From Rhodospirillales bacterium (GTDB lineage: Bacteria > Pseudomonadota > Alphaproteobacteria > Acetobacterales > Acetobacteraceae), in the NCBI GenBank assembly GCA_028866335.1, contig JAGWIL010000064.1, forward strand, positions 1-8,405: a DNA stretch of 8,405 bases. Reading direction: 5' to 3'. The position numbers and the translations under genes were made by a program. The notes under the pieces are model-generated. The model did not search any database and was not told where the DNA came from. It saw only the letters and a program-made list of their open reading frames with translations. Of the stretch, positions 2,801 to 6,984 are shown piece after piece. How positions within the stretch are numbered: the stretch's first letter is position 1; every line of letters starts with the position of its first letter.

Positions 2801-2813
2801 AGCAAGGCTTGCT
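2801..2813 (+). promoter_or_regulatory. Palindrome in the leader, possible operator
   Basis: AGCAAG-G-CTTGCT is a perfect 6-bp inverted repeat around one central base. It sits about 10 bases after the candidate -10 box and before the ribosome binding site of the small gene. A palindrome overlapping the transcription start is typical for autoregulated toxin-antitoxin-like modules. No DNA-binding protein is evident in the pair, so the operator role is inference. Confidence 0.3.
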
Positions 2814-2823
2814 GAATCAGAAT

Positions 2824-2829
2824 GGAAGA
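2824..2829 (+). promoter_or_regulatory. Ribosome binding site deciding the start of the small gene
   Basis: GGAAGA lies nine bases before ATG 2839. The alternative in-frame starts at TTG 2809 and ATG 2830 have badly spaced or no Shine-Dalgarno sequence, so 2839 is preferred. Confidence 0.55.
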
Positions 2830-2838
2830 ATGAAGCTA

Positions 2839-3114
2839 ATGGATGTGAAGGAAGCAGTCAAAGCGGCCAAGATTTACATCACCGATCTCTTTGCCGAAGA
2901 GGGCCTTAGTAACTTAGGGCTAGAGGAAGTTGAGCGGGAACCGTCTGAAAACGGGTGGCGAGTTACAGTTGGATTTTCTAGACCGTGGAACACCGTTAGA
3001 AATCCCTTAACAGTGATGACTGGAGAGGCCGCACCAAGGCGTTCCTATAAGGTAGTCTTAATCCGTGATGATGGAATGGTTCTTTCCGTAAAGCAGCGAG
3101 ACCGAACCGAGTAA
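2839..3114 (+). CDS. 91-residue protein of unknown function, partner of the PIN protein
   Basis: I do not recognise a named family. The protein is small, soluble and charged, with no signal peptide or membrane segment. It begins with an amphipathic helix (about residues 3-22, MDVKEAVKAAKIYITDLFA) and continues as probable beta strands around WRVTVGFSRPW (40-50) and SYKVVLIRDDGMVLSVKQ (69-86), suggesting a compact alpha+beta fold. No helix-turn-helix, ribbon-helix-helix or AbrB pattern is evident, so it does not look like a typical DNA-binding antitoxin. It lies directly upstream of the PIN gene in the same orientation. Both have A+T-rich codon use unlike their neighbours, so they probably arrived together. 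It has its own candidate promoter and leader palindrome. An antitoxin or immunity-type partner of the PIN protein is plausible but unproven. A longer form from TTG 2809 (101 residues) is possible. Confidence 0.75.
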   Translation: MDVKEAVKAAKIYITDLFAEEGLSNLGLEEVEREPSENGWRVTVGFSRPWNTVRNPLTVMTGEAAPRRSYKVVLIRDDGMVLSVKQRDRTE

Positions 3115-3142
3115 ATCGCTTAAGATAGCTAGCCCCCTGCTT

Positions 3143-3595
3143 TTGGACGCGAATCTTGCGGTTTTGTTTGCCGTCGGCCTAGCGGATCAAAGTTATATAT
3201 CTAAACACAGGAACTTGTCGGCCTATGACATAAACGATTTTAAAATCGTAAGCGCCCTGATAGCTAAATCGTCAGGTATCGTATTCACACCCCACGTCCT
3301 TACCGAAACTTCGAATCTCGTGCGCCAGATCGGAGATCCAATTAAAACGCGAATTTCGCAATCTCTTGCAAATATTATCAACAATTCGACTGAGGAATAC
3401 GTAAAAAGCAGTATCGCTGTAAAGCACGGGGATTATCTTCGCTTAGGTCTTACCGATGCGGTCCTACTCACTCTGCAAGCGAGCGGAGCCACTCTTCTCA
3501 CGGCTGATCTCGATTTTTATCTAGCGGCTGCAAATGCAGGGTTTAACTCCATTAACTATAATCATATACGGGAGCAACGACGAGACTTTCGGTGA
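3143..3595 (+). CDS. PIN-domain protein, probable metal-dependent ribonuclease
   Basis: About 150 residues with the spaced acidic residues of a PIN nuclease: Asp2 and Asn4 in LLLDANL, Glu55 in TPHVLTETSNL, Asp105 in LGLTDAVLL, and Asp122/Asp124 in LLTADLDFYLA (numbered from TTG 3143). PIN domains cleave single-stranded RNA with Mg2+ or Mn2+, and many are VapC-type toxins. The all-intact acidic set suggests activity. The start is uncertain. TTG 3143 would begin directly at the catalytic Asp and remove the hydrophobic first strand (PLLLD). The frame is open upstream from 3092 but contains no ATG or GTG, only CTG 3137 and ATA 3125, and no good ribosome binding site. It lies 28 bases after the stop of the small gene, so translational coupling is likely. 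Codon use is A+T-rich, suggesting transfer. VapC-like toxin is possible; a stand-alone RNase is the alternative. Confidence 0.85.
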   Translation: MDANLAVLFAVGLADQSYISKHRNLSAYDINDFKIVSALIAKSSGIVFTPHVLTETSNLVRQIGDPIKTRISQSLANIINNSTEEYVKSSIAVKHGDYLRLGLTDAVLLTLQASGATLLTADLDFYLAAANAGFNSINYNHIREQRRDFR

Positions 3596-6037: not shown

Positions 6038-6176
6038 ATTCGGCAACGCTCCCCGGATTACAGAGGCGAAGGGTTAGCATTCCAAACCTTCTCCGGCAAA
6101 CACCAGGGAAGGTTGTTTACCGTTCTGCCCCGTGCTAGGCGGCGAGCTTAACGCGATAAGCAAGCATGGAGGTCCA
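6038..6176. other. Divergent intergenic region
   Basis: These 139 bases separate the divergently transcribed kinase and bactofilin genes, so promoters for both should lie here. By eye I find no convincing -35/-10 pair in either direction and no strong inverted repeat. Confidence 0.5.
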
Positions 6177-6794
6177 GTGTTCAACAAGCGCAAGCCGGAT
6201 GAGCCAAAACCCATTGCCCCCGCACCACCGGTGGCGCAGGCTGAGCCCTCTGCCCCCACACAGGAGACCCCGGTGAGCAACGCCCCGGATAAACTTTTCG
6301 TTCCACCCAGCTTTCAGGAGACCCCAATGGCCCGCTCGCCCTTCGCACCGCCGCCCGCCCCTGCCACGCCTTCCAACCCATTGGCACCCGCTTCTGCCCC
6401 TCGCCCGCTTATGCCCAACACCACGTCCCGCGATGCGCCAGAGCGCCGCACCCTGGTGGTTGGCCGTGGTATTTCCGTGCAGGGCACCGTGCAGGATGCT
6501 GAGCGCCTTGTGGTCGAAGGCACGGTCGAGGCGACGATGATCAACGCCACCGAACTCTCCATCGCCCCTGGCGGCGTGTTCAAAGGCGAGGTTGAGGTGG
6601 ATGACGCCGAAGTGGCTGGCACCATAGACGGCACGCTGGTGGCCCGCGCCACGCTGGTTGTGCGCAACACCGGCCGCGTGCTGGGCACCGCCCGCTGCCG
6701 CCGCCTGCAGGTTGAGGATGGCGGGCAGATCACCGGCCGTATCGAGATGCTGGGCGAGGCCAACAGCCAAGCCTCCAGACTTTCAGATGACTAG
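6177..6794 (+). CDS. Bactofilin family cytoskeletal protein
   Basis: The protein has 205 residues from GTG 6177, chosen because GGAGG at 6168-6172 lies four bases upstream and FNKRK is a sensible N-terminus. An in-frame GTG at 6132 would add 15 residues without a good ribosome site. Residues 1-90 are a low-complexity, proline- and alanine-rich tail. Residues about 91-192 are the bactofilin (DUF583) domain, a right-handed beta-helix seen as repeated hydrophobic/glycine turns: RTLVVGRGISVQGTV, ERLVVEGTVEATM, TELSIAPGGVFKGEVEV, AEVAGTIDGTLVA and LQVEDGGQITGRIEM. A short acidic end (RLSDD) follows. Bactofilins polymerise without nucleotide and scaffold cell-wall enzymes or polar structures. No M23 peptidase gene neighbours it, unlike in many genomes. 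The transcript runs into a large palindromic element and then an intrinsic terminator. Confidence 0.93.
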   Translation: MFNKRKPDEPKPIAPAPPVAQAEPSAPTQETPVSNAPDKLFVPPSFQETPMARSPFAPPPAPATPSNPLAPASAPRPLMPNTTSRDAPERRTLVVGRGISVQGTVQDAERLVVEGTVEATMINATELSIAPGGVFKGEVEVDDAEVAGTIDGTLVARATLVVRNTGRVLGTARCRRLQVEDGGQITGRIEMLGEANSQASRLSDD

Positions 6795-6930
6795 AGCCGG
6801 ATGATTTTAGATCGAATCACGCAGTGATCCGCTCTAAAATCTGAATCCGCCTCTAAATCAATAAAATAGAGGGCGATTCAGACTTTAGGTTCGCTCACAA
6901 AGTGAGCAAACCTAAAGTCATCGCGCTCTA
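6792..6930 (+). repeat. Cloverleaf palindromic element: three abutting 39-nt hairpins in a closing stem
   Basis: The closing stem is TAGAGC-cg-GAT (6792-6802) with ATC-gc-GCTCTA (6920-6930), 9 of 11 pairs. Inside it three hairpins follow with no spacer. Arm 1 (6803-6841) has GATTTTAGA/TCTAAAATC, two CG pairs between mismatches, ATCAC/GTGAT and loop GCA. Arm 2 (6842-6880) has TGAATCcgCCTCTA/TAGAGGgcGATTCA (12 of 14 pairs) and an 11-base A-rich centre. Arm 3 (6881-6919) has GACTTTAGGTT/AACCTAAAGTC, one mismatch, GCTCAC/GTGAGC and loop AAA. Each arm is 39 nt. The first stem base is the T of the bactofilin TAG stop. It is followed by an intrinsic terminator, so it would be transcribed as the 3' untranslated region of bactofilin. 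It looks like a REP- or MITE-like mobile palindrome or a structured RNA; I do not know a name for it. Confidence 0.9.
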
Positions 6931-6948: not shown

Positions 6949-6984
6949 AAAAAAGCCGGAGCGCCAAAAGCCTCCGGCTTTTTT
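6949..6984. terminator. Bidirectional intrinsic terminator
   Basis: AAAAAAGCCGGAG (6949-6961) pairs perfectly with CTCCGGCTTTTTT (6972-6984) around a 10-base loop. There is a GC-rich stem core with a T-run downstream on the plus strand (from 6979) and an A-run that becomes the T-run on the minus strand. It serves the bactofilin transcript and, convergently, ppx, whose TAA stop at 6984-6986 touches the stem. Confidence 0.92.

Follow-up and report, generated by a model that had tools for sequence, protein, structure and literature searches.

A 139-nt repeat of two inverted palindromic halves at a bactofilin stop codon is very probably a MITE mobilised by IS630-type transposases

Introduction

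What kind of sequence is the palindromic 139-nt stretch that starts within the stop codon of a bactofilin gene and lies between this gene and a terminator-like site, with a GppA-like gene in convergent orientation? The window (i.e., the whole stretch of 8,405 nt that was analysed) represents part of an Acidocella-type (Acetobacteraceae) genome. The GppA-like protein encoded in it shares 98% identity with that of the MAG REEB107 (locus L001, genome G001; hereafter the sister genome), 95% with that of REEB59, and 79–92% with those of most of the next ~20 loci, several of which are named Acidocella. Genome-wide statements below refer to the genomes of these and other relatives, many of them fragmentary MAGs, and not to the window's own genome.

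A preliminary description of the stretch had proposed an exact four-way junction, composed of three hairpins of equal length and an enclosing stem, and had considered a palindromic mobile element, a transposase-recognised DNA cruciform or a structured 3′ UTR RNA as its possible nature. Its coordinates (i.e., 6792–6930) proved exact, and the features within and around the stretch are as follows.

6132..6794, + strand: bactofilin gene (ORF, PF04519), the TAG stop of which is formed by the first three bases of the element
6792..6930, + strand: whole element of 139 nt, very probably a two-palindrome MITE (matches in 13 of 22 genomes; 62 of 90 copies 139 nt long; fold)
6792..6855, + strand: left 64-nt half, self-folding (fold, half-to-half alignment, pair count)
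6856..6866, + strand: 11-nt spacer separating the halves (half-to-half alignment)
6867..6930, − strand: right 64-nt half, inverted with respect to the left half (gapless reverse-complement alignment, score 26 vs. 11 for the direct alignment)
6792..6809, + strand: left terminal repeat, TAGAGCCGGATGATTTTA (resembles IS630 ends)
6913..6930, − strand: right terminal repeat, reading TAGAGCGCGATGACTTTA on the minus strand (resembles IS630 ends)
6792..6793, no strand: TA, probably the left copy of a duplicated target, and first two bases of the bactofilin stop (single TA in the sister genome; exactly TA at empty site C)
6929..6930, no strand: TA, probably the right copy of a duplicated target (comparison with the sister genome)
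6803..6841, + strand: apical hairpin of the left half, or arm 1 (16 of 18 pairs; changes on both sides in 10 of 18 pairs, 29 copies)
6842..6880, + strand: arm 2, an alternative pairing of the inner ends of both halves plus spacer (13 of 18 pairs; 70.8% of cells paired, 29 copies)
6881..6919, + strand: apical hairpin of the right half, or arm 3 (17 of 18 pairs; changes on both sides in 9 of 18 pairs)
6814..6818, no strand: GANTC (GAATC), apical arm of the left half (44 of 62 copies of 139 nt)
6843..6847, no strand: GANTC (GAATC), inner end of left half (in 50 of 62 copies of 139 nt)
6875..6879, no strand: GANTC (GATTC), inner end of right half (in 55 of 62 copies of 139 nt)
6966..6982, + strand: hairpin resembling a terminator, with T run, located beyond the element and not part of it (one found vs. 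0.6 expected in shuffles, weak by itself)

Results

Two inverted halves underlie the fold

The RNA minimum free energy (MFE) of 6792–6930 amounted to −67 kcal/mol (z-score of −10.4), a value reached in none of 200 shuffles. The sequence is thus far beyond chance, as had been claimed, but the cause is a repeat built of two inverted 64-nt halves and not a junction of three hairpins. Although arm 1, arm 3 and the closing stem were found as described (16 of 18, 17 of 18 and 9 of 11 pairs, respectively), with the closing stem indeed beginning inside the bactofilin stop codon (6792–6794), arm 2 forms only 13 of 18 pairs, and three of its five innermost pairs fail, so that the three hairpins are not of equal standing.

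The left half (6792–6855) and the reverse complement of the right half (6867–6930) align without gaps on either side of an 11-nt spacer. When each half folds onto itself, all 20 basal pairs (10 of 10 per half) are formed and the cg/gc double mismatches shared by the closing stem (6798/6924 and 6799/6923) and arm 2 (6848/6874 and 6849/6873) are gone. These mismatches are real, and the common origin at which they had been taken to hint was confirmed, since both stems bring together ends from two inverted copies of a single 64-nt unit: near its two ends the left half has CG where the right half has GC, which prevents pairing between ends of different halves at these positions but allows it within each half.

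For the window copy, the two-hairpin fold (−67.0 kcal/mol, equal to the MFE) is more stable than the four-way junction (−62.4 kcal/mol), and when both folds were compared in the 62 copies of 139 nt, the two-hairpin one was the more stable in 46 and the cloverleaf in 16, with the mean MFE across copies lying below both. Moreover, in 29 diverse 139-nt copies, taken from a set of 47 that represented 84 copies, 93.1% and 91.4% of the cells were paired in the two basal helices of the two-hairpin fold, vs. 75.9% in the outer stem and 70.8% in arm 2 of the cloverleaf. Pairing in the cloverleaf sense occurred at 6850/6872 in 27 and at 6797/6925 in 22 of the 29 copies. Because of its lower stability and its poorer pairing across copies, the four-way junction was rejected as the structural unit and as the main conserved structure. 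Changes on both sides that preserve pairing were seen in 22 of 56 pairs, a count that is inflated by the copies being related and having been found by sequence. In the two apical arms, 10 and 9 of the 18 pairs showed changes in both partners, indicating that palindromy is kept despite sequence drift.

Elsewhere in the window, an 18/3/18 palindrome without TAGAG ends (2365–2403; 16 of 18 pairs) is situated inside an Asp/Glu racemase-type gene (1908–2666), and two adjacent ORFs of 101 and 150 aa (2809–3595) lie between this gene and an acetyltransferase-like ORF as a small accessory pair, for which no Pfam match was found at an E-value of 0.001.

The element belongs to a multicopy repeat family

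The element is not unique to the bactofilin locus. A DNA search yielded matches in 13 of 22 Acidocella-type genomes, among them 65 in G003 and 51 in G012, counts that include partial and opposite-strand matches and derive from candidates incompletely scored in three genomes. Searching 189 sequences for the end motif returned 90 elements (a few of them fetched twice, and one, at L072, belonging to a different form), 62 of which measured 139 nt and 84 of which measured 136–140 nt, with copies reading YTAGAGC...GCTCTAR. The many copies, their conserved length and the pairing changes on both sides all support the palindromic mobile element among the options raised at the outset. The element is short, multicopy, precise in its ends and devoid of a transposase gene. 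Genome G012 contains four identical copies with differing flanks, and several of its contigs start or stop inside copies, as recent assembly-breaking repeats would cause.

When 200 genomes of the wider G006 family were searched with a covariance model and stricter filters, 37 contained matches. Many of these matches are 103–106 nt long and comprise a GAATC-bearing arm, a linker such as CAAACAAAGAGT, and a second arm. A copy on a Rhizobium leguminosarum plasmid, perhaps a RIME, scored 75.9 bits against the model, and a plasmid search with a 103-nt relative returned no match.

Several rearranged forms were also encountered. Solo 64-nt halves are present at L003 (7070–7133) and at L213 (1937–2000), the latter abutting the end of an IS630 remnant. 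At L285 (G016:C45:11278–11833), two facing half-elements enclose unrelated DNA in a unit of 556 bp, possibly reflecting DNA capture between ends. At L084, inverted copies are located 1.3 kb apart; a transposase between them was considered and rejected, as the two intervening ORFs look by eye like a NUDIX protein and a dienelactone hydrolase.

Empty alleles point to a duplicated TA target

The base preceding the element was a pyrimidine in 86 of 89 copies and the base following it a purine in 84 of 90, and no covariation was seen between these two flanking bases. Empty sites were compared at three loci. At site C, where G005 carries the element, exactly TA is present between the same flanks in both G017 and G004. 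At site A, where G005 and G017 carry the element, G003 reads agcTAGaacc, while G004 and G006 contain other extra bases. A further site (site B) gave no readable junction. At the window locus, the sister genome reads GTCC-TA-AACCCTCGC and the window TGAC-TA[element]TA-AACTATCGC; aligning both scored 43 with one TA, 41 with two and 39 with none. By this small margin, the one-TA alignment is the best, so that the target was most likely CTAA, containing the bactofilin stop. Site C is thus exact, while site A and the window are consistent with a TA duplication.

The TA at 6792..6793 and that at 6929..6930 therefore appear to be a probable target duplication, although the unduplicated insertion of a TA-carrying element beside a TA would look identical. 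At L001 of the sister genome, a copy reduced to the right half and the inner ends (1437–1524) is situated in the loop of the terminator-like hairpin of bactofilin, ~35 nt below the insertion point of the window. L336 (G002) carries a partial element at the site C gene end where G005 has a full copy, making this a possible insertion hot spot.

Insertions are enriched at stop codons

With L072 left out as another form, the sites of the remaining 89 copies were reconstructed by joining the flanks across one TA, genes were called with a crude ORF caller, and each site was classified. After removal of 17 copies with a non-TA terminus, 17 with a flank of <600 bp and 2 repeats of one site, 53 copies were classifiable, of which 33 were located at a stop codon, 17 in intergenic DNA and 3 inside genes. 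In comparison, the 765 background YTAR sites, taken from the window and 32 loci, comprised 60 stop, 248 intergenic and 457 intragenic sites. Against the intergenic background only, stop codons were still enriched with an odds ratio of 8.0 (p-value of 1e-10), and between convergent genes stop outnumbered intergenic sites by 23 to 8 vs. 31 to 65 in the background. None of the 49 copies with both neighbours called was situated between divergent genes. Genome G003 forms an exception, with 6 stop and 11 intergenic sites.

At the level of single flanks (sites fetched twice included), 64 had a coding-like ORF open to the element, and 52 of these ORFs end exactly at the terminal TAG/TAA, 1 ends a base earlier and 11 extend further in. 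At a fourth site (site D), the exact position of the element's TAG is occupied by a TGA or TAA stop in the six relatives besides G017. Two additional comparisons gave weak results. After 8 of 27 had been dropped, 19 other TAGAGC palindromes, several of them pieces of the 139-nt family, were distributed over 6 stop, 12 intergenic and 1 intragenic site (p-value of 0.22 vs. intergenic). A family-level replicate, from which 14 of 30 loci were dropped for unclear ends or short flanks, yielded 7 stop, 7 intergenic and 2 intragenic sites (n = 16; p-value of 0.02 vs. all other sites and 0.41 vs. intergenic).

A YTAR target may consist of a pyrimidine followed by a TAA or TAG stop, in which case the duplicated TA and the terminal TAG of the element would rebuild an in-frame stop and consequently leave the protein unchanged. 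The window copy probably entered via the bactofilin stop codon in this way (CTAA in the sister genome), restoring the stop with the gene intact. By our reading, the TTAA of site C and the CTAG of site A are the stops of two convergent genes at once, both of which were rebuilt as TAG.

We infer that stop-codon occupancy mainly reflects the survival of harmless insertions, although targeting and mere tolerance give the same pattern in these data and cannot be told apart. A bolder and rather doubtful idea is that the long-unexplained CIR-type repeats of alphaproteobacteria represent MITEs mobilised by IS630 with an active preference for stop codons, especially the CTAG or TTAA shared by convergent genes, with features of the termination zone steering the transposase and the element's own TAG ends rendering every insertion silent. 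If true, this would constitute a transposon with a built-in safe harbour.

The terminal repeats resemble those of IS630 elements

IS630 DDE domains were detected in 8 of 13 genomes, and the transposase half of a Mesorhizobium IS630 matched in 29 of 43; the transposase halves of two proteins of this IS630 subgroup scored above the NCBI IS630 cut-off. The Mesorhizobium IS630 (L254) carries TAGAGCGGGATGAGATT at both ends, with a C and a G outside, while a Rhizobium IS630 ends in TAGAGCGGGATTGTTTTA, that of G018 in TAGAGCTTGATTGG (two copies at different sites), and that of G037 in TAGAGCGGGATGAGTTC (a single end found). Genome G037 also has a CIR-like element ending in TAGAGCGGGATGACTTC, which provides a same-genome hint. 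For most other listed IS630 loci, no clear end pair was found.

The best element end matches the L254 end at 17 of 18 positions and the window's ends do so at 14–15. Across the related IS630 ends, the best element ends match at 13–17 of 18 positions and the window's own at 11–15, similarities that rest on few bases, with TAGAG being common to several palindrome families. For comparison, a second IS630 lineage reached 11 of 18, two IS5-type ends 9 and 10 of 18, and a further IS end, from G007, 10 of 18. The ends of this second lineage (L266 and L268), TAGAGCATTTTCCGATCA, equal the 18 terminal bases of another palindrome family, i.e., a 104-bp TAGAGC family seen at L012 (7417–7520), L274 (1937–2040) and L140 (2064–2167), so that the pairing of a palindrome family with an IS630 lineage recurs.

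No intact cognate transposase was detected in the nearest genome (i.e., the sister genome G001), where both the IS630 DDE domain search and that with the Mesorhizobium transposase half gave no hits, or in the element-bearing G005 and G009; MAGs are, however, incomplete. In the same genome as the element, partial hits to the cognate transposase occur in G003 and G012, and one in G017 at a contig edge, while G018 combines a two-frame IS630 with matches to the repeat. From the resemblance of the ends, we infer IS630 to be the mobiliser: a DDE transposase of this (Tc1/mariner-like) family, supplied in trans, would recognise the terminal repeats TAGAGCNNGATGA, insert the element into YTAR and duplicate the TA. 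The element itself is very probably a non-autonomous, IS630-mobilised MITE.

Alternative movers and functions

Two other movers were weighed against this IS630 reading. An IS5-family transposase could use YTAR as does IS711, for which a duplication of the TA within this target and an association with Bru-RS palindromes are described (PMC2266754, PMC3163539, in the sections cited), and DUF4096 (PF13340) scored above cut-off in 6 of 11 genomes. Since only 2 of 8 PF13340 loci allowed TA-bounded ends to be proposed, and these match at 9 and 10 of 18 positions vs. 13–17 for the related IS630 ends, such a mover seems improbable. The two inverted palindromes and short spacer would also suit a REPIN, i.e., a pair of inverted REP-like palindromes moved single-stranded by a RAYT (Y1 tyrosine) transposase, and alternative hairpin and clover folds are noted for REPINs (PMC3116915, in the part cited). 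However, Y1_Tnp was present in only 1 of 13 genomes (G020, at 24 bits), and the symmetric YTAR flanks with TA at both ends make this origin extremely unlikely. The same symmetric target with its duplicated TA fits a double-strand DDE transposase, and speaks against the transposase-recognised cruciform suggested earlier.

A function at the locus itself was likewise considered. Its position between stop codon and terminator-like site and its very stable RNA fold would allow the element to act as a 3′ UTR RNA under selection that stabilises the bactofilin mRNA or ends transcription, effects of a kind described for ERIC (PMC2229807, in the part cited). Yet the sister genome is without the insertion at this stop codon, no copy could be seen by eye in the inspected region of L002–L007, dozens of copies stand beside unrelated genes, and the window gave no Rfam match at or above the gathering score. 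A selected RNA role at bactofilin, as had been envisaged, is thus highly improbable, although an RNA effect may exist as a side effect of insertion and would be compatible with the MITE reading. Alternatively, the repeat could be kept for its GANTC sites, as read by a CcrM-type methyltransferase. GANTC occurs at 20.3 per kb in 89 elements (at least one in 86 of these) vs. 1.66 per kb in the relatives' loci, and 13 of 14 genomes encode a RAMA-domain methyltransferase, Caulobacter alone giving a hit among the controls; the G013 enzyme, the sole one tested at full length, matches the solved CcrM 6pbd (2.5e-139). Against this, two of the three GANTC sites are located in the conserved inner ends, so that ancestry may explain them, the apical site is retained in 44 of 62 copies, and G013 itself had no match in the DNA search and one weak match with the covariance model, rendering selection for methylation very unlikely. 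At L092 (G003:C28), a copy (2145–2283) adjoins a CcrM-type methyltransferase hit (2351–2620).

Discussion

The non-autonomous MITE reading, with its filled and empty alleles and IS630-like ends, offers a testable answer to the question of CIR-type mobility in acidophilic Acetobacteraceae. The stop-codon result furthermore suggests how a palindromic parasite can spread through a gene-dense, GC-rich genome with its genes unbroken, because a pyrimidine followed by an ochre or amber stop can form a YTAR target and a TAG is supplied by the element. Annotation also calls for caution, as a 3′ UTR structure of this sort may be a copy of a transposon instead of an RNA specific to its locus. In searches of the open-licence PMC literature, no report of the element or its stop-codon bias was found.

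As for its insertion, TA targeting with duplication has been established in vitro for ISY100, a member of the IS630/Tc1/mariner family that inserts almost exclusively into TA (PMC2170065, in the part cited). The element appears to share the duplicated TA target with ISY100 but, unlike this autonomous element, is without a transposase gene.

By layout, the element is probably of the CIR type. The cited section of PMC2229807 describes CIR (CcrM-associated intergenic repeat), found in Caulobacter and other alphaproteobacteria, as a repeat of ~110 bp with two arms plus a linker, GANTC at the terminal loop and TA termini, listing no terminal inverted repeat, a "?" for target duplication and an unresolved mobility. 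Likened by description, the 139-nt element shares the two arms plus linker, the TA termini and the conserved GANTC, and many of its relatives measure 103–106 nt and carry GAATC at an apical loop (as seen in three folded relatives of 103–104 nt). It differs from CIR in its length of 139 nt, its two halves of equal length and its inverted terminal repeats. Its apical GANTC is situated in the stem beside the loop region. On layout, we would place it as a probable 139-nt Acidocella form of CIR. Its palindromic intergenic layout also resembles, again by description, that of rhizobial RIME and of Bru-RS, which are palindromic or two-palindrome intergenic repeats of alphaproteobacteria (Bru-RS1 being 103 bp; PMC2573895, PMC3163539, in the parts cited).

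The best functional analogue appears to be RUP of Streptococcus pneumoniae, a MITE of ~107 bp with IS630-Spn1-like ends and a TA target that is over-represented between convergent genes (PMC2229807, PMC3049150, in the sections cited). Likened by description, both are short MITEs with IS630-like ends and a TA target; the host is unrelated, however, and the cited sections mention no stop-codon enrichment for RUP. A precedent for stop-codon abutment is found in the GTAG REPs, whose termini are reported often to provide a TAG stop to flanking ORFs (PMC3733652, in the part cited), but these are 20–40 bp long and have different ends, as opposed to the 139 nt of the present element. By analogy, the element may thus be filed as an IS630-type MITE that works like RUP.
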